A DNA stretch of 64,000 nt from Halocalculus aciditolerans. Lineage in GTDB: Archaea > Halobacteriota > Halobacteria > Halobacteriales > Halobacteriaceae. Both the position numbers and the translations under genes were made by a program. Under the pieces are notes generated by a model. That model searched no databases. It was not told where the DNA came from and saw nothing but the letters and a program-made list of their open reading frames with translations. Positions 991 to 13,210 of the stretch are shown here, piece by piece (the first letter of the stretch is position 1; each line of letters opens with the position of its first letter). The stretch is from positions 620,001-684,000 of the forward strand of contig NZ_BMPG01000001.1 of NCBI RefSeq assembly GCF_014647475.1. The letters run 5' to 3'.

Positions 991-2328
991 ATGCGTGTCG
1001 TAATCGTCGGTGCCGGCGAAGTCGGGTCGAGCATCGCGGCCGACCTGAGTGACGCGCACGACGTGGTCGTCATCGACGTCGACTCCGAGCGCGTAGAGGC
1101 GTTGACGTACAACGTCGACGTGCTGCCGGTGGAGGGCGACGGGACGGACCCGGCCGTGCTCGAGGAAGCGTCCGTGGACGCGGCAGATATGGTTATCGCG
1201 TCGACGGACGACGACGAGACGAATCTGGCGGTGTGCGGGACGGCGGCGACGCTCGGCGACCCGTTCACTATCGCGCGCGTGCAGAAGACGACGTACCTCC
1301 AGACGTGGCGGCGGGCGCAGGGCGCGTTCAGCGTGGACTTCATGGTGTGTACGGACCTGTTGACCGCGCAGTCGGTGGTGCGGGTCATCGGGTTCCCGAC
1401 GGCGACGGACGTCGACCCGTTCGCGGGCGGGCGCGTGCAGATGGCGGAGTTCGAAGTCCCCGAGGACAGTCCGATTGCGGGGCAGACGGTGCAGGAGGCA
1501 GACCGGTTCGAGTCGCTGACGTTCGCGGCGGTGATTCGGGACGGCGAGACGCACGTGCCGCGCGGGGAGACGGTGTTGACGGCGAACAGCCGCGTGCTCG
1601 TCATCGGGACGCCGCAGAGCGTGGAGGCGTTCGCGGCGGCGATTACGCCGGAGCGCGCGGTCGGGAACGCAGAGGACGTGCTCATCGTCGGCGGGAGCCA
1701 GCAGGGCTTCCTCATCGCGAAGCTCCTCGGAGAGCGCGGGTTCAGCCCGCGGCTCATCGAGCGGGACGAGGCGCGCGCTCGCGACCTCGCGGAGCGCCTA
1801 CCGGAGACGACGGTGATGGCGCACGACGCGACGGACGCAGAGTTCTTAGAGCGCGAGCACGTCGGCGAGTCGGACGTCGTCATCTCCTGTCTCGACAGCG
1901 ACGAGAAGACGCTGCTCGCGTCCCTCCTGGTGAAGCGGCTGGGGGCGGCGCGGTCGGTGGCGGTCGTGGACTCCGCGGAGTACGTCGACCTCTTCGAGAC
2001 CGTCGGCGTCGACGTCGCGGTGAACCCGCGTGAGGTGACGGCAGAAGAGATCACGCGGTTCACGCGGGAGCGCCGCGCGGAGAACGTCGCCATCATCGAG
2101 CCGGGGACGGCGGAAGTCCTCGAAATCGAGGTGGACGGAGAGAGCGTGCTCGCCGGTCGGGCGATTCAGGACGCCGTACAGGACCTCCCGGACGGCCTCG
2201 TCATCGGGGCGATTACGCGCGGTGAGGCGGTCATCACGCCGCGCGGGGACACGGTCGTCGAGGTCGGCGACCACGTCGTCGTGTTCGTGCGCGAGGACGC
2301 GCGGGACACGGTCGAAGCGAAACTATGA
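991..2328 (+). CDS. trkA: Trk potassium uptake protein TrkA, two RCK domains
   Basis: Peripheral cytosolic gating subunit of a TrkH/TrkG K+ channel-transporter; it binds NAD(H) or nucleotides and couples ligand state to the pore. The 446-residue protein has two Rossmann RCK_N folds. The first has GAGEVGSS near residue 7 followed by an acidic strand end (VVIDVD); the second starts near residue 225 (LIVGGSQQG). Each is followed by an RCK_C domain, the last one ending in an ITPRGDTVVEVGDHVVVF strand set. The start at 991 is set by a GGAGGG site. The stop overlaps the next gene as ATGA, so it is translationally coupled to the first trkH. Tandem RCK is the classical full-length TrkA form, unlike the one-RCK proteins at 5781 and 8749. 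Confidence 0.95.
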   Translation: MRVVIVGAGEVGSSIAADLSDAHDVVVIDVDSERVEALTYNVDVLPVEGDGTDPAVLEEASVDAADMVIASTDDDETNLAVCGTAATLGDPFTIARVQKTTYLQTWRRAQGAFSVDFMVCTDLLTAQSVVRVIGFPTATDVDPFAGGRVQMAEFEVPEDSPIAGQTVQEADRFESLTFAAVIRDGETHVPRGETVLTANSRVLVIGTPQSVEAFAAAITPERAVGNAEDVLIVGGSQQGFLIAKLLGERGFSPRLIERDEARARDLAERLPETTVMAHDATDAEFLEREHVGESDVVISCLDSDEKTLLASLLVKRLGAARSVAVVDSAEYVDLFETVGVDVAVNPREVTAEEITRFTRERRAENVAIIEPGTAEVLEIEVDGESVLAGRAIQDAVQDLPDGLVIGAITRGEAVITPRGDTVVEVGDHVVVFVREDARDTVEAKL

Positions 2329-3899
2329 GCGGTCAGCTATACGTCGATTGGCGGGCGAGCCTCAGCCTCGTCGGGACGGTCGTGAAGTGGCTGTCCGTCC
2401 CGATGCTCTTCCCGCTCGCGGTCGGCGTCTACTACGGCGACGGCGGGATTCCGGTGTTCCTCACGGCCATCGCGGTGACGTTCACGACGGGCTGGCTGCT
2501 GGAGCGACTCGACGCCGACCCGGACCTCGGGACGCGAGAAGGCTTCTTGATGGTGTCGTCGACGTGGCTCGCAGTGACGGTCGTCGGCGCGATTCCCTAC
2601 GTCTTAGAGGGCCACGGCGTCCCCTTCCTGTTCGCCGCGGAGAGCCCGGCGTCGACGCTCGCGGACCCGGTGAACGCGGTGTTCGAGACGATGAGCGGGT
2701 TCACGACTACCGGAGCCACGGTGATGGGGAGTATCTCGTTCGACGCGCACTCGCGAGCCGTGATGATGTGGCGTCAGCAGACCCAGTGGCTCGGCGGGAT
2801 GGGGATTGTCGTGCTCGCGGTCGCCATCCTCCCGAAACTCTCCGTGGGAGGTGCACAGCTCATGGACGCGGAAGCGCCGGGGCCAGGCCTAGAGAAACTC
2901 ACGCCGCGCATCGCGGAGACGGCGCGGGCGCTCTGGGGGATTTACATCGGGCTGACGGCGCTCGAAATCGTCCTGCTCTACGCGCTGCACGTGCTCGGGT
3001 ACGCGCCGAACATGACGTTCTACAACGCGGTGGCGCACGGGTTCACGACGATGCCGACGGGCGGGTTCAGCCCGGAAGCGCGGAGCATCGAGGCGTTCAG
3101 CGCGGTCGTCCAGTGGCTCATCGTTCCGTTCATGCTCTTCGCCGGGGTGAACTTCGCGCTGTTCTGGCACGCGATTACCGGGGATTGGCGGCACGCGCTC
3201 CGGGACGCGGAGCTCCGGTTCTTCGCGGGAGCGTTCGCCGCGGGGACCGCAGTCCTCACCGTGCTCCTGTTCACTGACTCCGGGCTGGTCAACGTGGAGA
3301 ACGTCGGTCGGATCGCGGGCGCGGTCGAGCCCTCGCTCCGCTACGCGACGTTCCAGATGGCGTCCATCGTGACGACGACCGGATACGCCAACATGGATTT
3401 CAACGCGTGGGGTGCGCCCGCGCAGTACGTCCTGCTCGCCGCGATGTTCTTCGGCGGGAGCGCGGGCAGCACGGCCGGCGCGGTCAAGGCCGTCCGCTGG
3501 CTCGTCATCCTGAAGAGCCTGCGCCGTGAGCTGTTCACGACCGTCCACCCCGAGGCGATTCGGCCGATTCGGCTCGCGGGGCGTGTCCTCGACGAGAGCA
3601 CCGTCCGCGGCATCTACGCCTTCACTCTCCTCTACTTCGTCATCTTCGCGGCGGCGACGCTCCTCGTGTTCCTGCTCGGCGCGACGACCGACGGGCCGCT
3701 CACGTTCCTGGAGGCGTCGAGCGCGGTCGCGGCCACGCTCGGGAACGTCGGGCCGGGGTTCGGCATCGTCGGGCCGATGAACAGTTACCTGCCGTTCCCC
3801 GACGCGTCCAAGCTCCTGATGGTCGCGTTGATGTGGACGGGCCGCCTCGAAATCTTCCCGCTGTTCGTCCTGCTCACGCGGAGCTACTGGACGGACTGA
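2325..3899 (+). CDS. trkH: TrkH family potassium uptake protein (copy 1)
   Basis: Integral membrane K+ pore of the Trk/Ktr superfamily, 524 residues, with the usual four M1-P-M2 repeats. The pore-loop signatures visible are GFTTTGA, TMPTGGF, TTTGYA and GNVGPG; each carries the glycine expected in the selectivity filter. The N-terminus MSGQLYVDWRASLSLVG is typical of haloarchaeal TrkH. It overlaps the preceding trkA by 4 nt and so forms a standard trkAH pair. It is clearly more distant from the two TrkH copies downstream (3948 and 6937) than these are from each other. Confidence 0.95.
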   Translation: MSGQLYVDWRASLSLVGTVVKWLSVPMLFPLAVGVYYGDGGIPVFLTAIAVTFTTGWLLERLDADPDLGTREGFLMVSSTWLAVTVVGAIPYVLEGHGVPFLFAAESPASTLADPVNAVFETMSGFTTTGATVMGSISFDAHSRAVMMWRQQTQWLGGMGIVVLAVAILPKLSVGGAQLMDAEAPGPGLEKLTPRIAETARALWGIYIGLTALEIVLLYALHVLGYAPNMTFYNAVAHGFTTMPTGGFSPEARSIEAFSAVVQWLIVPFMLFAGVNFALFWHAITGDWRHALRDAELRFFAGAFAAGTAVLTVLLFTDSGLVNVENVGRIAGAVEPSLRYATFQMASIVTTTGYANMDFNAWGAPAQYVLLAAMFFGGSAGSTAGAVKAVRWLVILKSLRRELFTTVHPEAIRPIRLAGRVLDESTVRGIYAFTLLYFVIFAAATLLVFLLGATTDGPLTFLEASSAVAATLGNVGPGFGIVGPMNSYLPFPDASKLLMVALMWTGRLEIFPLFVLLTRSYWTD

Positions 3900-3947: not shown

Positions 3948-5534
3948 ATGGTCTCAGGGCTCCGTTCTGTCGGCCGCGACCTCGGGCGGATCCTCGAGGC
4001 GTTCGCGGTGATGCCGACGGCGTCGATGGTCGTCGCGGCCGCGTGGCGCGAGTGGTACGTTCTCCCGTCGCTTCTCGTCGCTGCGGTCGTGCCGTTCGCG
4101 GTTGGGTGGTGGCTCACAGAGTCGTACGCGGACGCCCGGGAGCCCGGGAAGCTCCACGGGATGGTTATCGCGGCGACCGGGTGGGCGACCGTCGGCGTGT
4201 TCGGTGCGATTCCGTTCGTAGGAATCGCGGTCTCGATGCAGCAGGGCTGGTTCGGCGCGCCGCCGCTGAACGCGACGATGGCGGCGTTCCTGAACCCCCT
4301 GAACGCGGTGTTCGAGTCGTTTAGCGGGTTCACGGGCACCGGCCTCACGATGAGCGTTCACGAGAACACGCTCCCACACACGCTCCAGTGGTGGCGGTCG
4401 TTCACGGAGTGGGTGGGCGGCGTGGGCGTCATCGTCCTGACGACGGCGATTCTCGCTCGCCCGGGAAGCGGGAGTCTCACTCTCTACGAGTCCGAGGCGC
4501 GCTCGGAGAAGATTCACCCGAGCATCGTCTCAACGGTGCGCACCATCTGGTGGATTTTCCTCCTCTTCACGTTCGTCTCCATCGTCACGCTGTGGCTCGC
4601 GGGCCTCCCGGCGTGGGACGCCATCAACCACGCGATGACCGGGCTCGCCACCGGCGGGTTCAGCATCACCGATAACTCCATCGCGACCTACGACAGCCCG
4701 CTCGTCGACTTCGTCCTCCTCCCGATCATGACGCTCGGAAGTATCGCGTTCCCCATCCACTACCTCCTCCTCCAGGGCCACTTCGAGAACGTGTACGAGG
4801 ACCTCCAGACGCGCTGGGTGTTCGGCTTCTTCGCGGTCGGCGTCGCCGCGCTCGTCTGGCTGTTGTACACCGGCCGCGTCTACCACGGCACGGAGGCGAT
4901 TACGTTCCTCGGCGTGACGTTCACCGGTCAGGCGGCCGCGATCTTCCAGTCCGTCCGGTACGGCGCGTTCCAGTTCGTGTCCGCGGCGTCTTGCACGGGC
5001 TTCCAGACGGCGTCCATCGGCGGGTCGTGGAGCGCGGCGTCCCAGCTCGTCGTCTCGTTCGCGATGGTCGTCGGGGCGGCTTCGGGGTCGACCGTCGGCG
5101 GCATCAAACTCGTCCGGCTCGCCACGCTCCTGAAGGGAGCGGCGTTCCGCGTCTCGGGCGTGTTCTACCCGCAGTCGGCGGTTCGGACGTTCCGGCTCGG
5201 CGACCGAAAGCTCTCCAGTGCCGAACTCACACAGGAGTTCGAGGAGGCTGCGATTATCTCTCTGCTCTGGGGCGTGTTCCTCGTGCTCGGCATCGCCGTC
5301 CTCCTGCTCGTCGTGCCGATGGGCCCCGACGGGTTCGCCTTGGAGAACGTCGTGTTCGAGGTCGCGTCGGCGCAGGGGAACGTCGGGCTCTCCACGGGCA
5401 TCACCGGCCCGGACATGCCGACTGCGGCGAAACTCGTCTTCCTCCTGAACATGTGGGTCGGGCGTCTCGAAATCATCCCCGTGCTCGTCACGCTCCGCGG
5501 CGTCTTCCGCGGCTTCGGGGTGTACCGCCAGTGA
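3948..5534 (+). CDS. trkH: TrkH family potassium uptake protein (copy 2, first cassette)
   Basis: K+ pore protein of 528 residues with four pore loops: GFTGTGL, GLATGGF, AASCTGF and GNVGLS. The start ATG follows a 48-nt gap after copy 1. It is the first member of a cassette with a small membrane protein (GTGA overlap at 5531) and a one-RCK TrkA at 5781. The central part, from about HTLQWWRSF to GLATGGFSIT, is almost identical to the copy at 6937, while the N-terminal 130 residues and the loop around residues 300-330 differ more. This suggests a tandem duplication with later homogenisation of the middle. The pore loops differ from copy 1, so ion affinity or gating may differ. Confidence 0.95.
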   Translation: MVSGLRSVGRDLGRILEAFAVMPTASMVVAAAWREWYVLPSLLVAAVVPFAVGWWLTESYADAREPGKLHGMVIAATGWATVGVFGAIPFVGIAVSMQQGWFGAPPLNATMAAFLNPLNAVFESFSGFTGTGLTMSVHENTLPHTLQWWRSFTEWVGGVGVIVLTTAILARPGSGSLTLYESEARSEKIHPSIVSTVRTIWWIFLLFTFVSIVTLWLAGLPAWDAINHAMTGLATGGFSITDNSIATYDSPLVDFVLLPIMTLGSIAFPIHYLLLQGHFENVYEDLQTRWVFGFFAVGVAALVWLLYTGRVYHGTEAITFLGVTFTGQAAAIFQSVRYGAFQFVSAASCTGFQTASIGGSWSAASQLVVSFAMVVGAASGSTVGGIKLVRLATLLKGAAFRVSGVFYPQSAVRTFRLGDRKLSSAELTQEFEEAAIISLLWGVFLVLGIAVLLLVVPMGPDGFALENVVFEVASAQGNVGLSTGITGPDMPTAAKLVFLLNMWVGRLEIIPVLVTLRGVFRGFGVYRQ

Positions 5535-5755
5535 AACCCGACGACATTCCCGGGTTCACCGAACTCGTCGCGGCCGGACCGGACGACCGCGTGTTCGACA
5601 CGCTCGTGCTCGTCGGCCCCATCGTCGTGCTCGCGCTCGCAGTGTTCGGGCGGGGCGTCGCGACGACCGCGCTCGCCGCGGTCTACCTCCTCGGATTCGT
5701 CGGATACGTCTGTCTCCTGGGGATTCGACGCGCCCGCGAAAGCGACAGCACTTAA
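5531..5755 (+). CDS. Small two-helix membrane protein coupled to trkH (candidate Trk accessory subunit A)
   Basis: A 74-residue protein starting at GTG, overlapping the trkH stop as GTGA; its stop lies 25 nt before the one-RCK trkA. It has a polar N-terminus with PGF and GPDDRVFD, a hydrophobic helix (about residues 24-39), GR at 40-41, a second helix (about 44-63) and a basic tail (IRRAR). It aligns without gaps to the 73-residue protein at 8511. Shared positions include P7, G16, D18, D19, V21, D23, L25, V28, G29, G40, R41, Y52, Y59, R66 and R67. I know no named family. Position and coupling suggest a structural or assembly partner of TrkH, by analogy with small subunits such as KdpF; that role is inferred. 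Confidence 0.8.
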   Translation: MKPDDIPGFTELVAAGPDDRVFDTLVLVGPIVVLALAVFGRGVATTALAAVYLLGFVGYVCLLGIRRARESDST

Positions 5756-5780
5756 CTGACTGGCCGGCGCGGCCACGTAC

Positions 5781-6458
5781 ATGTACGTCATCGTCGTCGG
5801 CGCAGGGCAGATCGGCTCGCAGGTACTCGACCTCGCGACAACCACGGAGAACGAGGTCGTCGTCGTCGAACGCGACCCGGAAGTCGCGGAGGCCGCGAGC
5901 CGCGAGTACGACTGTCTCGTTCTGAACGGCGACGCGACGAACCGGGAAATTCTGGAGGACGCAGGCGCTGACCGGGCGGACGCGATTATCTGCACGACCG
6001 ACGAGGACGCGACGAACCTCATGGTGTTGTTCCTCGCGAAGGAACTCGATATCGCCTCGCTGGTGACGGTGGTGCAAGACCCCGACCACCTAGGTATCTT
6101 CGAGCGAGTCGGCGCGACCATCCTCGAAAACCCACAGCGCCTCATCGCCCAGTATCTCTTCCGCGCGGTCCAGCGGCCCGCCGTCGAGGACTTCATGGAG
6201 CTCGGCGGGGACGCGGAAATCTTCGAGACGACCGTCGCGCCCGACGCCCCCATCGCCGGGCTATCACTCCGGGACGCCGGCGAGAGCGGGCTGCTCGGCG
6301 ACGACGTCCTCCTCGTCGCCATCGAGCGCACGACCGACGGCACGGAAGAGGTCATCACGCCGCGCGGCGGCACGACGGTCGAACCGGGTGACGTCGTCAC
6401 GGTGTTCTCCCGCGTCGGCATGACCGACGACGTCCTCGAAACCTTCGCCGGACTGTAG
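5781..6458 (+). CDS. trkA: TrkA-type potassium gating protein, single RCK (first cassette)
   Basis: A 225-residue RCK protein: RCK_N Rossmann domain with GAGQIGSQ near residue 7 and the acidic VVVERD strand end, then a linker through NPQRLIAQYLFRAVQRP, then RCK_C (ITPRGGTTVEPGDVVTVFSR). It is half the length of the TrkA at 991, so it presumably forms the gating ring as a homo-oligomer, as KtrA does. It closes the cassette TrkH, small protein, TrkA. It is closely similar to the copy at 8749, including the CTTDEDATN segment. Confidence 0.94.
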   Translation: MYVIVVGAGQIGSQVLDLATTTENEVVVVERDPEVAEAASREYDCLVLNGDATNREILEDAGADRADAIICTTDEDATNLMVLFLAKELDIASLVTVVQDPDHLGIFERVGATILENPQRLIAQYLFRAVQRPAVEDFMELGGDAEIFETTVAPDAPIAGLSLRDAGESGLLGDDVLLVAIERTTDGTEEVITPRGGTTVEPGDVVTVFSRVGMTDDVLETFAGL

Positions 6459-6523
6459 ATACGGTCCGCCTGACTCACGCGCCCCGGCGCGAAACCACTC
6501 GGCGACGAACGACCCGACGGCGC

Positions 6524-6781
6524 TCACTCGTCATTACGATAGCCGAGAAACGTCCAGTGGACGTGGTGGTCCTCATCGCCCAGCGAGCGGGTGACGTCGA
6601 TCTGGTACAGTGCCTGCTTGATCGCTCCCGTCTCGTCCTCCTCGAAGAGAATGACTTCCGCTTCGTAGCGAGTGCGTTCGACGATACGGTATCGTTCGAC
6701 ATTACCCCTTTCCGCGATTTCGACGTCGAGGATGTCCTCGATGGGGGGGACAGTGCCCTCTGGTTTGCGATCTGTTCCCAT
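6524..6781 (-). CDS. Conserved-looking small acidic protein between the two trk cassettes
   Basis: An 85-residue protein, not recognised. It is acidic and charged and would fold as beta strands (ERYRIVERTRYEAEVILFEED, QALYQIDVTRSLGDEDHHVHWTFLGYRND). There are no membrane helices or cysteines. It reads against the flanking trk genes and starts in the AT-rich region that also holds the trkH copy 3 promoter, so the two would share a divergent control region of about 155 bp. The composition of the protein is haloarchaeal. The ORF could be a real small gene or a passenger. Confidence 0.6.
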   Translation of the reverse strand: MGTDRKPEGTVPPIEDILDVEIAERGNVERYRIVERTRYEAEVILFEEDETGAIKQALYQIDVTRSLGDEDHHVHWTFLGYRNDE

Positions 6782-6862
6782 GACGTTCTATATCTCGCTC
6801 TTCCTTATTACATTTGCTGATAGCTGGGGTGTGGAGGGGGAATACTTGGCTTCTCCGAAGTT

Positions 6863-6889
6863 GGGTATATATGTGGAGTCCGTATACCC
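6863..6889 (+). promoter_or_regulatory. TATA-containing inverted repeat upstream of the third trkH
   Basis: GGGTATA (6863-6869) and TATACCC (6883-6889) form a perfect 7-bp inverted repeat with a 13-nt spacer, 48 nt before the trkH start at 6937. The repeat overlaps the only TATA-like stretch here (GGGTATATATG). A dimeric regulator bound to it would compete with TBP. The Lrp-RCK_C protein at 9698 is an obvious candidate, but nothing in the sequence proves that. Confidence 0.45.
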
Positions 6890-6936
6890 GACCACTACCG
6901 GAAGGTATTTCTTCCGTCTGTCAGTACGGACGGGGC

Positions 6937-8514
6937 ATGCAGGAGTCCTCTGCGACGATCGGCCGCGATCTCGGCCGGATCTTTCAGGCGTTCTCCGTGA
7001 TGCCGTTGCTGTCGCTCCCGGTCGCCCTCGTCTGGCACGAACTCTACGCAGTTCCTGCACTCCTCGTCTCGACGCTCCTCCCGCTCGGAATCGGCACCGC
7101 GCTCGTCCGCCGGTTCGCTGGCGCGGCCGAACCGGGGAAACTCCACGGGATGATGATCGCGGCGAGCGGCTGGTTCCTCGTCGCCGGCTTCGGCGCGCTC
7201 CCGTTCCTCCTCGTGGCGTGGACACAGCAACTCGGGCTCTTCGGCGCGCCGCTGCTCTCGGAGACGACGGCGGCACACCTCTCCGCGCTGAACGCGCTCT
7301 TCGAGAGTCTCAGCGGCTTCACCGGGACGGGACTCACGATGAGCGTGAACGAGTCCGAACTCCCACACACGCTCCAGTGGTGGCGGTCGTTCATCGAATG
7401 GATCGGCGGCGTGGGCGTCATCGTCCTGACGACGGCAATCCTCGCCCGTCCGGGAAGCGGGAGCCTGACGCTTTACGAGTCAGAGGCGCGCTCGGAGAAA
7501 ATCCACCCGAGCATCGTCTCCACCGTCCGGACGATCTGGTGGATCTTCCTCCTCTTCACCGTCTTCTCCATCCTGGTGTTGTGGCTCGCGGGAATGCCGA
7601 TGTGGGACGCCATCAACCACGCGATGACCGGGCTCGCCACCGGCGGGTTCAGCATCACGGACGGCTCCATCGCGACCTACGACAGCCCACTCATTGACTT
7701 CGCCCTCCTTCCGATTATGGTGCTCGGCAGCATCGCGTTCCCCGTCCACTACCTCGTCCTCCGCGGCGACCTCTCCCAGCTGTACGAGGACCTCCAGACG
7801 CGCTGGGTGTTCGGCTTCTTCGGACTTTTGTCGGCCTTCCTCGTCGCTATCATCTACAGCCAAGGCGTCTATCAGTCGACGGAGACGATCACCTTCCTCG
7901 GCACCACGCTCACCGGGAACGCGGCCGCGCTCTTCCAGTCCGTCCGGTACGGCGTCTTCCAGCTCGTCTCTGCGGCTTCCTGTACGGGCTTCCAGACGGC
8001 CAACTCGCTCGGAACGCAGTGGTCGATGGCCGCGCAGATGACGGTATCCATCGGGATGGTGGTCGGCGCGGCCGCCGGGTCGACCGTCGGCGGCATCAAA
8101 CTCGTCCGGCTCGCCACGCTCACGAAGGGGACCGCCTACCGCATTCGGAACGTCTTTCTCCCGGAGACCGCCGTGACACATTTCGAACTCGGGAGGCGGA
8201 AACTCGACGACCAGGAGGCCGCCCGTGAGTTCGAGGAAGCGGCGATCATCACGTTCCTCTGGTTCGTCTTCCTCGCCGTCGGCGCGTTCGTCCTCATGCT
8301 CACCGTGCAGTCGGCGTACACGCTCCCGAACGTCCTCTTCGAGGTCGCGTCGGCGCAGGGGAACGTCGGGCTCTCCGCGGGTATTACCGGCCCCGGCATG
8401 CCGACGCCCGCGAAAGTGATGTTCCTCTTCAACATGTGGATCGGCCGCCTCGAAATCATCCCCGTCCTCGTCTTACTCCGGGGCCTCCTCTACCGTGAGG
8501 GTGTCTTCCAATGA
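6937..8514 (+). CDS. trkH: TrkH family potassium uptake protein (copy 3, second cassette)
   Basis: K+ pore protein of 525 residues. I place the start at the ATG beginning MQESSATIGRDLGRIFQAFSV because it matches the N-terminus of copy 2 (RDLGRILEAFAV); the frame is open further upstream without homology. Pore loops are GFTGTGL, GLATGGF, AASCTGF and GNVGLS, the same as copy 2. Long blocks are shared nearly base for base with copy 2. Its stop overlaps the start of the small membrane protein at 8511 as ATGA. It has its own AT-rich upstream region with a TATA box inside an inverted repeat, so the second cassette is probably transcribed separately. Confidence 0.95.
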   Translation: MQESSATIGRDLGRIFQAFSVMPLLSLPVALVWHELYAVPALLVSTLLPLGIGTALVRRFAGAAEPGKLHGMMIAASGWFLVAGFGALPFLLVAWTQQLGLFGAPLLSETTAAHLSALNALFESLSGFTGTGLTMSVNESELPHTLQWWRSFIEWIGGVGVIVLTTAILARPGSGSLTLYESEARSEKIHPSIVSTVRTIWWIFLLFTVFSILVLWLAGMPMWDAINHAMTGLATGGFSITDGSIATYDSPLIDFALLPIMVLGSIAFPVHYLVLRGDLSQLYEDLQTRWVFGFFGLLSAFLVAIIYSQGVYQSTETITFLGTTLTGNAAALFQSVRYGVFQLVSAASCTGFQTANSLGTQWSMAAQMTVSIGMVVGAAAGSTVGGIKLVRLATLTKGTAYRIRNVFLPETAVTHFELGRRKLDDQEAAREFEEAAIITFLWFVFLAVGAFVLMLTVQSAYTLPNVLFEVASAQGNVGLSAGITGPGMPTPAKVMFLFNMWIGRLEIIPVLVLLRGLLYREGVFQ

Positions 8515-8732
8515 GCCTCCAGAACTGGCCCGTCATCCGGCAGTTCCGCGAGTTCGGCGGCGACGACGCCGTCGTTGACGCACTCATCGTCGTCGGTCTC
8601 GCACTCGTCGCCGCCGGCGCTATCCTCGGCCGACATCCGGCCGTCATCGGCGCTGCGACGCTCTATGTCGTCGCCGTCGCAGCCTACCCCGTCTATCGGA
8701 CGCTGCGACGACGCTCACAGAACCGTCTGTAA
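8511..8732 (+). CDS. Small two-helix membrane protein coupled to trkH (candidate Trk accessory subunit B)
   Basis: A 73-residue homologue of the protein at 5531, in the same position between trkH and the one-RCK trkA. It has FGGDDAVVD before a helix at about residues 24-39, GR at 40-41, a second helix at about 44-61, and a basic end (RTLRRRSQNR). The ungapped match over the full length, with conserved G-DD-V-D-L, VG, GR, Y and RR positions, shows that selection has kept it after duplication. It overlaps trkH by 4 nt and lies 16 nt before trkA. The function is inferred to be a TrkH partner. Confidence 0.82.
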   Translation: MSLQNWPVIRQFREFGGDDAVVDALIVVGLALVAAGAILGRHPAVIGAATLYVVAVAAYPVYRTLRRRSQNRL

Positions 8733-8748
8733 CTCACACACCACAACA

Positions 8749-9426
8749 ATGTACGTCATCATCGTCGGCGCGGGCAATATCGGCTCGCAAGTCCTCGAAC
8801 TGGCTGAACAGACACAGAACGAAGTCGTCGTCATCGAACGCGACCCGGACGTCGCCGACCGTGCCGGCCGCAGACACGACTGTCTCGTCATCAACGCGGA
8901 CGCAACCGAGAAGGAGACGCTCGAAGATGCGGGTGCCGAACAGGCCGATGCGATCATCTGCACGACGGACGAGGATGCGACCAACATCATGTGTCTCCTC
9001 CTCGCGAAGGAGTTCGAGATCCCCTCCCTCGTCACGGTCGTCCAGAACCCCGAGCACATGAACGTCTTCCGCCAGATTGGGGCGAACGTCCTCGAGAACC
9101 CTCAGCGACTCATCGCCGAATACCTCTTTCGCGCCGTCCAGCGTCCCGCGATCAAGGACTTCATGACGCTCGCCGGCGGTGCGGAAGTCTTCGAAATCAC
9201 GGTCACCGCTGAGGCACCCATTGCCGGCAAAACCCTCCACGAAGCCGACGAAGCAAACCTCATCCCGGAAGACGTCCTCGTCGTCGCCGTCGAGCGCGGT
9301 GAGAACGTCGTCACTCCCCGTGGCGGGACCGTCGTCGAGGCCGGCGACCTTCTCACGGTCTTCTCACGGAAAGGCGCGACAGACAACATCCTCCGAACGT
9401 TCACCGGGACGGACACCAAGCAGTGA
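8749..9426 (+). CDS. trkA: TrkA-type potassium gating protein, single RCK (second cassette)
   Basis: A 225-residue RCK_N plus RCK_C protein. GAGNIGSQ near residue 7 and VVVIERDPDV mark the nucleotide site; the C-terminal domain contains DFMTLAGGAEVFEITV and VVTPRGGTVVEAGD. The ATG at 8749 gives the family N-terminus MYVIIVGAG. It is the partner of the TrkH at 6937. Its RCK_C segment is strikingly like the C-terminal domain of the regulator at 9698 (DFLSLAGGAEVIELTV), so transporter and transcription factor may sense the same ligand. Confidence 0.94.
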   Translation: MYVIIVGAGNIGSQVLELAEQTQNEVVVIERDPDVADRAGRRHDCLVINADATEKETLEDAGAEQADAIICTTDEDATNIMCLLLAKEFEIPSLVTVVQNPEHMNVFRQIGANVLENPQRLIAEYLFRAVQRPAIKDFMTLAGGAEVFEITVTAEAPIAGKTLHEADEANLIPEDVLVVAVERGENVVTPRGGTVVEAGDLLTVFSRKGATDNILRTFTGTDTKQ

Positions 9427-9697: not shown

Positions 9698-10441
9698 TCA
9701 GGCGTCGGCCTCGAACGGCTCGATGGCGGCGCTCTCCATGCTGTAGCGTGAGAAGATGGTGACGAGGTCGTCGGCTCGAATCTCGGTGAACCCGCGTGGC
9801 GTGATAATCTCGTCGTCGCGCTCGATGGCGATGACGAGCAAGTCCTCGTCGAGGAGGCCGGATTCGTTCGCCTCGGAGAGCGTGAGACCGGCTATCGGTG
9901 AGTTCTCATCGACAGTTAGCTCGATCACCTCGGCCCCTCCCGCGAGGCTGAGGAAATCCCGCATCGGTGAGTTCCGCGGCTTGTCGCCCGGCCCGAAGTG
10001 GTCGAGCGGCACCGTCTCCTCCATGTGGACGATGTGTTCGTCCTCAATGTCGAGCCCGATGTCGGCGAGCTGGCGGGAAATGACCGTCAACTCGTCGGAG
10101 TTCGCGCCGACTGCGGTGACGTGGAGGTTCCGCCGGCCGGCGAGGAGTTCGCGGACGTTGATGACGCCCGGGATGTTCGACACTTTCTTCGCCTGTTTCT
10201 CGCGGTCGGCGACGGGAGCGGTGCAGATGAAGAGGTTCTGCATCCAACTCTCGCCCCGCTCGTAGTTGATCGCTGCGTGGTAGCCAGTGATGATTCCCCG
10301 TTCCTCGAGCTGTTCGATACGATTTCGAATCGTCGCACCGGAGACGTTCACCTCGTCGGCGATCATCGGTGCCGACGTGTTCCGTGCGTCCTCGACGAGG
10401 CGATAGAGGATGCGCCGATCGACTTCGTCCAACCGCTCCAT
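9698..10441 (-). CDS. Lrp/AsnC-type transcriptional regulator fused to a TrkA_C (RCK_C) domain
   Basis: A 247-residue protein with three parts. The N-terminal winged helix (residues about 1-60: MERLDEVDRRILYRLVEDAR, then ATIRNRIEQLEERGII) is the Lrp/AsnC DNA-binding domain. A middle domain (about 65-145) ends with a conserved IVHMEETVPLDHF linker. An RCK_C domain follows at about 160-240, with SLAGGAEVIELTV, SPIAGLTLSEANESG and ITPRGFTEIRADDLVTIFSR. The last part is nearly superimposable on the C-termini of the TrkA copies at 5781 and 8749. This architecture is known in haloarchaea as Lrp/AsnC with TrkA C-terminus. Lying beside the trk cassettes, it probably regulates K+ uptake genes in response to the RCK_C ligand; that is inference. 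Confidence 0.92.
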   Translation of the reverse strand: MERLDEVDRRILYRLVEDARNTSAPMIADEVNVSGATIRNRIEQLEERGIITGYHAAINYERGESWMQNLFICTAPVADREKQAKKVSNIPGVINVRELLAGRRNLHVTAVGANSDELTVISRQLADIGLDIEDEHIVHMEETVPLDHFGPGDKPRNSPMRDFLSLAGGAEVIELTVDENSPIAGLTLSEANESGLLDEDLLVIAIERDDEIITPRGFTEIRADDLVTIFSRYSMESAAIEPFEADA

Positions 10442-10828: not shown

Positions 10829-13210
10829 ATGAGCGACGCGGACTCCGGAGGGGCGACGACGGAGCTCTCGCGCGACATGAGCCTCTTCGACATCACTTTT
10901 ATCGGCGTCGGCGCGATGATCGGTGCCGGCGTGTTCGCCCTCACGGGCTTCGCTGCCGGTATCGCCGGTCCCGCCCTCACCATCGCGTTCATCATCAACG
11001 GCTTCGTCGCGCTCTTCACCGCCGTGAGCTACGCCGAACTCGGCGCGGCGTTCCCCGAAGCCGGCGGCGGCTACCTCTGGGTGAAAGAGGCCCTCCGGGA
11101 CCCCAACGGCTTCTACGCGGGCTGGATGAGCTGGTTCGCTCACGCCGTCGCGTGCTCGCTCTACGCCGTCACATTCGGGACGTTCTTCACCGTCCTCGCC
11201 GTCTACGCCCTTCCGGGCCTCTCCAACCACTTCGTCCTCTTCGGCTTCCTCTCTCAACACTGGGTTGAGAAACTCGTCGCCGTCCTCGTCGTCATCGCGT
11301 TCGCCTACATCAACTACCGCGGTGCAGAAGAGACCGGGAAAGCCGGCGTCGTCGTCACGGGTCTGAAACTCCTCATCCTCGGCATTTTCATCGTCTTCGG
11401 CGTTCGCGCGACGCTCACCGCCCCGCAGTGGGCCGGCAAGTTCCTCTCCAGTCCCATGTTCGCCCCGAACGGCGTCTTCGGGATCATCGGCGCGATGGGG
11501 TTCACCTACATCGCCTTCGAGGGCTACGAGATTATTGTCCAGTCCGGCGAGGAGGTCGTCGACCCCGGGACGAACATCCCGAAAGCCGTCTTCTACTCGC
11601 TCGCCATCGTCATCCCCATCTACGTCCTCGTCGCCTTCGTCTCGATCGGCGGCATCACCGTCAACCCGCACATTCTCGACCTCGCCGGTGTCGCGGGCAC
11701 GCCCGCCGACTGGACGACGTGGCAGATTCTCGGCGAACTCGGCGAGCTCGGCATCATCCGCGCGGCCGGCCAGTTCGTCCCCTACGGCGTCCCCCTCCTC
11801 CTCTTCGCCGGGCTCGCCGCCACCGTCTCCGCGCTCAACGCGACCGTCTACTCCTCCTCGCGCGTCTCCTTCGCGATGGGCCGCGACCGCGTCCTCCCGC
11901 CCGTCTTCGACAACGTCCACCCGGAGAAACGCACGCCGCACATCGCGATCGCCATCTCCGCGGTGATCATCGTCGTCATGGCCATCGTCCTCCCGATAGA
12001 ATCTGTCGCCGCGGCGGCGGACATCATGTTCATCCTGCTGTTCGTGCAGGTGAACTGGACGCTCATCCGGATGCGCAAGACCCACCCCGACCTCCCGCGG
12101 ACCTACGAAGTTCCATACATGCCGTGGCCGCCGCTCATCGGCATCGTTCTCCAGTTCCTCCTGACGCCCTTCCTCGTCTACGAACTCGGTCTCCAAGCCA
12201 TCGGTATCGGAACGAGCAACGAGGGATTGATCGCGCTCGTCACCACCATCGTCTGGATGGGGCTCGGTCTCGTCGTCTACTACGGCTACTCGCAGGCAAA
12301 GGAAGAAGAGCAACTCGAAGAGGAAACTCCGACTGTCGTCGTCGAGCAGGAGCCCGCCAACCGAGAGTATCAGGTCGTCGTCCCGGTCGCTAATCCGGAG
12401 ACCGCAGCTCACCTCATGCGCACCGCCATCGACATGGCGCGTGAGAACGACGGGGAGATTCTCGCACTCAGCGTCGTCACCGTCCCCCAACAAACCCCGC
12501 TCAACGAGGGACGCGAGTTCGTCGACGACGAGCGCGAACTGCTGACCCAGACGATGGAGATTGCCGAGGACGAAGACGTCCCGGTCAGTGGCACGGTCAA
12601 GATCGGCCACCAGGTCTCCACGGCGATCCTGAACACCATCGAGCAACACGACAGCGACGCCGTCATTCTCGGATGGCGGGGGCGCTCCCGTCGCCGTGAC
12701 TTCGTCCTCGGGAGTAACGTCGACGACGTCGTCACGGGCGCGAAGTGCGACGTACTCGTCGAGCGCATCGACGGCGAGGTCGAAGACGTCGAGCGGATTC
12801 TCGTGCCGACCGCCGGCGGCCCGCACGCCGACCTCGCGGCCGAAGTCGCACAGGCGATTTCACGCACCACGCGCGCACGCGTCGATGTCGCTCACGTGGT
12901 CTCACCCGACGCGTCAGAGGCGGACCGCTCCGACGCCGCAGCCCTCGTCGACGCCCTCGCGTCCAGACTCTCTGACGACATCGATATCGGAACACGCGTT
13001 CTCGAGGGCGATGTCGCGGACGCGATTGTCAACGCGTCCGAGGAGTACGACCTGACAGTGATCGGTGCGTCACGGGAAGGACTCCTCCAGCAGCTCGTCT
13101 TCGGGGCAGTTCCCGAAGCCGTCGGCGAGCGAGCGAAAGGCACGGTCATCATGGTGAAACGCCATGGAACGCTACGCTCGTGGCTCTCCCGGTGGTTCTC
13201 CTGGAAGTGA
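10829..13210 (+). CDS. APC-family amino acid/cation permease fused to two UspA domains
   Basis: A 793-residue fusion. Residues about 1-480 form an APC-superfamily transporter with about 12 helices, opening with DITFIGVGAMIGAGVFALTG, the unwound-helix-1 substrate motif. After a Glu-rich linker (EEEQLEEETPTVVVEQEP) two universal stress protein domains follow: about 520-650, with GWRGRSRRRDFVLGS as the degenerate G-2x-G-9x-G(S) nucleotide motif, and about 655-780, with GASREGLLQQLVFG. The ATG at 10829 (MSDADSGG) is preferred to one 27 nt upstream. Transporter-UspA fusions are frequent in haloarchaea. UspA domains bind ATP or AMP, which suggests energy- or ligand-gated transport. The substrate is unknown; the K+ context and similarity to KUP/APC folds make a cation or amino acid plausible. 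Confidence 0.92.
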   Translation: MSDADSGGATTELSRDMSLFDITFIGVGAMIGAGVFALTGFAAGIAGPALTIAFIINGFVALFTAVSYAELGAAFPEAGGGYLWVKEALRDPNGFYAGWMSWFAHAVACSLYAVTFGTFFTVLAVYALPGLSNHFVLFGFLSQHWVEKLVAVLVVIAFAYINYRGAEETGKAGVVVTGLKLLILGIFIVFGVRATLTAPQWAGKFLSSPMFAPNGVFGIIGAMGFTYIAFEGYEIIVQSGEEVVDPGTNIPKAVFYSLAIVIPIYVLVAFVSIGGITVNPHILDLAGVAGTPADWTTWQILGELGELGIIRAAGQFVPYGVPLLLFAGLAATVSALNATVYSSSRVSFAMGRDRVLPPVFDNVHPEKRTPHIAIAISAVIIVVMAIVLPIESVAAAADIMFILLFVQVNWTLIRMRKTHPDLPRTYEVPYMPWPPLIGIVLQFLLTPFLVYELGLQAIGIGTSNEGLIALVTTIVWMGLGLVVYYGYSQAKEEEQLEEETPTVVVEQEPANREYQVVVPVANPETAAHLMRTAIDMARENDGEILALSVVTVPQQTPLNEGREFVDDERELLTQTMEIAEDEDVPVSGTVKIGHQVSTAILNTIEQHDSDAVILGWRGRSRRRDFVLGSNVDDVVTGAKCDVLVERIDGEVEDVERILVPTAGGPHADLAAEVAQAISRTTRARVDVAHVVSPDASEADRSDAAALVDALASRLSDDIDIGTRVLEGDVADAIVNASEEYDLTVIGASREGLLQQLVFGAVPEAVGERAKGTVIMVKRHGTLRSWLSRWFSWK

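Follow-up and report, generated by a model that had tools for sequence, protein, structure and literature searches.

The Trk and Ktr channels are among the best-studied K+ uptake systems of prokaryotes and are taken to consist of a pore and a ring of RCK domains, and K+ uptake is something on which the salt-in haloarchaea rely. KdpF, the tiny membrane protein of KdpFABC, consists of one helix of 29 residues. Broadly, the standard TrkH-TrkA and KtrB-KtrA systems are homodimeric pores gated by a ring of eight RCK domains, as set out in PMC6987127. In the classical Trk of Vibrio parahaemolyticus and E. coli, the TrkA protein has two RCK domains, with no small subunit described (PMC6987127). The KtrB-KtrA systems and the two-subunit TrkA of Thermotoga maritima (TM1088) have one-RCK regulators that likewise build an eight-RCK ring, and no membrane accessory protein is found for them in the available parts of the two papers (PMC6987127, PMC4380455). 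KdpF and KdpC have been suggested to be structural chaperones (PMC12629597). A further point of comparison comes from the CbrXA system of Pseudomonas, in which cryo-EM shows CbrX, a hairpin of ~58 residues encoded by an overlapping and translationally coupled gene, attached to the CbrA SLC5 domain, and two CbrX peptides are predicted to bridge a CbrA dimer (PMC13022988, a preprint).

The DNA analysed here (the window) is a stretch of 64,000 nucleotides from the archaeon Halocalculus aciditolerans, and all genes of its K+ transport cluster lie on the forward strand. The cluster begins with a classical pair, included for comparison only, that consists of a two-RCK TrkA (907-2328, a frame of 473 aa with two TrkA_N stretches) and a TrkH (2325-3899, PF02386), behind which a small ORF was looked for and none was found. 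Two cassettes follow (3948-6458 and 6937-9426), each with the order trkH, small gene, one-RCK trkA. The first encodes a TrkH paralogue of 528 aa, a K+ channel/transporter pore (3948-5534), a small two-helix membrane protein of 74 aa with a GTG start, assigned by its match to the family profile and its AlphaFold2 model (5531-5755), and a TrkA of 225 aa (5781-6458). The second encodes another TrkH paralogue, with its start inferred to be the ATG at 6937 (6937-8514), a small two-helix protein of 73 aa with an ATG start, assigned by reading of the sequence and its AlphaFold2 model (8511-8732), and a TrkA of 225 aa (8749-9426). A preliminary description of this locus had claimed that both small genes overlap the stops of their trkH genes, that a one-RCK TrkA follows each of them, and that the two small proteins are homologous from end to end without a gap, and all three claims are borne out. 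Read directly from the sequence, the GTG at 5531 overlaps the TGA of the first trkH (5532-5534) by four nucleotides (GTGA), and the ATG at 8511 overlaps that of the second (8512-8514) in the same way (ATGA). The small proteins share 20 identical residues with no internal gap (BLASTP E 3e-8, a single comparison), and this likeness is far beyond chance because homologues occur at dozens of other places, all of them directly behind trkH.

Several other features were noted in or beside the cluster. An ORF of 85 aa between the cassettes (6524-6781, reverse strand) looks soluble and has no Pfam match, and beside the Trk genes lies a gene (9698-10441, reverse strand) for an HTH protein of the Lrp/AsnC type that carries a TrkA_C (RCK_C) domain at its C-terminus; this protein may sense a ligand and regulate K+ transport genes. 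At 10838-13210 (forward strand), an amino acid permease is encoded in fusion with two universal stress protein domains. Elsewhere in the same genome there is a further TrkH (L141, contig C3:8320-9641) that is split across two frames and apparently frameshifted.

Each cassette TrkH scores 274 bits against PF02386, where the cut-off is 27, which places both in the TrkH family. Residues 5-520 of the first align to V. parahaemolyticus TrkH (4j9u, E 1e-38), and this alignment covers all four repeats and keeps the filter-loop glycines. The cassette TrkAs have one TrkA_N (PF02254) and one TrkA_C (PF02080) domain each, the domain content of one-RCK TrkA/KtrA regulators, and that of the first cassette also matches TrkA/KtrA chains of solved structure. 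Thus the cassettes resemble classical Trk in a pore that is homologous over nearly its full length and in having an RCK-domain regulator, and they differ from it in the one-RCK form of that regulator and in the small membrane gene. They share one-RCK regulators with KtrB-KtrA and TM1088, whereas their pore aligns to TrkH from its N-terminus. The earlier view that the third gene stands outside the standard TrkH-TrkA and KtrB-KtrA picture agrees with PMC6987127.

A profile of the small protein, built from ten relatives and used at a threshold of E 0.001 on 391 Halobacteria genomes (86 genera), with up to 15 candidates scored in each, detected members in at least 83 of these genomes and at least 38 of the genera, including Halobacterium salinarum. 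The small family is real, and it extends well beyond the window. The gene copies collected together with a TrkH partner number 92, in a set for which some places were fetched twice, and represent 85 distinct proteins. Every one of them lies immediately 3' of a trkH, and 90 overlap or abut its stop, with the small gene starting, relative to the stop's end, at -4 nt in 76, at -1 in 10, at 0 in 4 and at +46 in 2. Copies scattered away from trkH were looked for among the profile matches and fetched loci, with no credible orphan emerging, and no TrkH-small fusion is present among the fetched loci listed. The two weakest matches (L131 and L132) lack a TrkH and look like chance, and were discarded, as were two chance matches in the window's own genome, one inside a ribonucleotide reductase-like frame (L008) and one weak (L009), and a distant match inside a large membrane protein (L217). 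Plasmid records held no match to copy 2. A similar locus, with the order trkA-trkH-small, was found in a genome outside Halobacteria that belongs to the same phylum (G420, locus L216). At loci L124-L129, where the TrkHs have no adjacent trkA, the small protein takes a divergent form that in most cases ends in an acidic tail.

The position of the one-RCK trkA was scored at 79 places. It precedes trkH in 57 of these and follows the small gene in nine, which include the two window cassettes; one further place has a trkA on either side, and 12 have none adjacent. The window order is therefore a minority form of a locus that usually reads trkA-trkH-small, and the earlier proposal that the locus is defined by a small gene lying between trkH and trkA is not supported. 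Because the position of trkA varies while the link to trkH is constant, it appears that the partner of the small protein is TrkH rather than TrkA.

In a survey of 44 genomes, every TrkH was scored for a small gene on its 3' side and for the type of its adjacent TrkA. The small gene was found behind 15 of 30 one-RCK-linked TrkHs and behind none of 31 two-RCK-linked ones (Fisher's test, 2e-6, for cases that are not independent, since the 15 form a single TrkH clade). All 15 small-linked TrkHs thus adjoin a one-RCK TrkA, in keeping with the tie to one-RCK Trk loci that had been suspected, and none belongs to a classical two-RCK system. Their clade has an SH-aLRT support of 98 in a tree of 104 TrkHs and is marked by TrkH residues of its own, of which 19 positions are listed. 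In a wider tree, the small gene has been retained by 82 of the 84 TrkHs of this clade. The two TrkHs without it, in or beside the clade (L155 and L157), count against the reading of the small protein as a subunit; they are candidates for loss and could serve as natural controls. This pattern would fit a single gain followed by near-universal retention, with L155 and L157 representing either losses or a sister branch. Behind the remaining surveyed TrkHs, no other similarly placed short membrane ORF stood out. The closest TrkH clade with a one-RCK TrkA works without the small gene, which shows that Trk systems in general can do without the small protein. Within the small-linked clade, the TrkH encoded at 6937 has orthologues in two other genomes, G004 and G005 (support 100/100), and the one encoded at 3948 clusters with different loci of the same two genomes and with Halospeciosus flavus (support 99/97). 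Since the two copies fall into separate orthologue groups, and since the two trkH-type loci of G004 and G005 sit on different contigs, the window copies are old paralogues and not products of a recent tandem duplication.

Neighbours in an operon are not obliged to bind one another, and the small gene could encode an independent membrane protein, e.g., a sensor or another ion-handling protein, that shares just an operon with trkH. The distribution makes this improbable: no credible copy was found off trkH, the link to trkH is kept while trkA switches sides or is absent, and the gene is restricted to one TrkH clade.

A short ORF that starts inside trkH, in a GC-rich genome rich in long shadow ORFs, might also be thought a spurious frame, or one that serves translational coupling and whose product is irrelevant. 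However, the profile spans 38 genera, and nine positions (G16, D19, L25, G29, P30, G40, R41, Y52 and F56) are near-invariant across 70 members. Pairs of close relatives give dN/dS values for the small gene that are mostly 0.06-0.4, with a few pairs higher, and the outlier pair (L109/L105) coincides with an indel. Such codon-level selection already contradicts the notion of an irrelevant product, which we regard as very improbable indeed. The constraint is weaker than that on the adjacent trkH, and this lower conservation counts against a subunit, yet the selection is clearly purifying. Purifying selection had been claimed from the two window copies, which by themselves could not prove it; it is the pairs of close relatives that bear the claim out. 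Among the conserved residues named from the same pair, G16, D19, G29, G40, R41 and Y52 are indeed near-invariant, whereas R66-R67 is not family-wide, and P30 and F56 are among the most conserved positions of the family although the window pair differs there.

Typical members of the family have 64-81 aa. AlphaFold2 models of small proteins 1 and 2 (mean pLDDT 79.9 and 80.0, respectively) both show a low-confidence N-terminal helix followed by helices at 20-39 and 43-72 that form a hairpin turning at the conserved G40-R41, and the protein is predicted to insert in the membrane as a tight helical hairpin. Neither window protein matches Pfam, nor NCBIfam at a meaningful score. Searches of Pfam (with 70 members), NCBIfam, PDB profiles and Foldseek gave no convincing family match, and the latter two no solved structure with a meaningful likeness; the only Pfam match below 0.001 was to DUF2177 (best E 8.7e-6, in four of the 70 members). 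Derivation from a duplicated repeat or detached segment of TrkH was rejected on an hhalign probability of 0.2% against the window TrkH alignment. Literature searches, which largely missed subscription journals, turned up no published description of the protein, and the earlier impression of a conserved, uncharacterised third gene is upheld.

The small protein had also been called KdpF-like, and there is some reason for the comparison: KdpA and TrkH are members of the same superfamily of K+ transporters, and both tiny proteins are encoded beside such a pore (PMC6987127). By eye, there is in addition a loose YxxY likeness. Against recruitment of a KdpF homologue to TrkH stand an hhalign probability of 1.3% (obtained with an E. 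coli KdpF sequence) and the absence of any KdpF family when 70 members were compared with Pfam at E 0.1. The small protein, moreover, has two helices and 64-81 aa, compared with the single helix and 29 aa of KdpF, and all of its copies lie beside trkH, while KdpF belongs beside kdpA in a kdpFABC operon. We consider such homology extremely unlikely and retain KdpF as an analogy only.

By analogy, the best precedent and closest working parallel is CbrX. Both proteins are encoded by a gene that overlaps the gene of one dedicated transporter partner, and both are two-helix hairpins, by prediction in the case of the small protein. The differences are that the partners belong to different transporter superfamilies and that the CbrX gene lies upstream of that of its partner. 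On the strength of this parallel, we suggest that TrkH is bound in the membrane by the small protein, which would help its assembly, stability or gating. It is rather probable that the family provides one haloarchaeal TrkH clade with an accessory membrane subunit of its own, a component of the TrkH channel that has probably been overlooked. Counted in favour of a subunit are the homology, the universal trkH linkage, the clustering in one clade, the one-RCK association, the purifying selection, the AlphaFold2 hairpins and the G420 locus; the fact that growth does not require CbrX (PMC13022988, preprint) counts against it. In the mechanism that we envisage, the four-nucleotide overlap of stop and start probably couples translation of the small gene to that of trkH, and the most likely site for the hairpin is the surface of TrkH that faces the lipid, or else the interface of the TrkH dimer. 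Packed in this way, it would aid the assembly, stability or gating of a TrkH pore on which one-RCK TrkA would act as an octameric ring that drives it, a role as a TrkH-bound accessory subunit being the most likely function. More tentatively, haloarchaea may have a distinct Trk subfamily in which the hairpin is a permanent third subunit that tunes the gating or oligomeric state of TrkH, e.g., by bridging the dimer in the way predicted for CbrX and CbrA.

The same overlap would have the small protein made beside nascent TrkH at a near-equal dose. Together with the small predicted hairpin fold, and with the suggestion that KdpF and KdpC are themselves structural chaperones (PMC12629597), it could point to an assembly or insertion factor, or to a quality-control modulator (of stability, degradation or transient inhibition), that acts on nascent TrkH and stays outside the mature channel. 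We hold this to be rather unlikely: a chaperone that acts in turnover would not require a separate gene for every trkH paralogue, whereas in this clade every paralogue has kept one.

That a conserved extra membrane protein is limited to one TrkH clade suggests that the design of these channels includes a part so far unrecognised. A permanent third subunit of the kind tentatively proposed above would be the first non-pore membrane subunit described for a Trk/Ktr channel, as far as our searches show. Hairpin proteins that are encoded by overlapping genes and go with large transporters are a small class, which the family enlarges, and its homologue in Halobacterium salinarum, a cultivated organism with genetic tools, makes the proposal directly testable.
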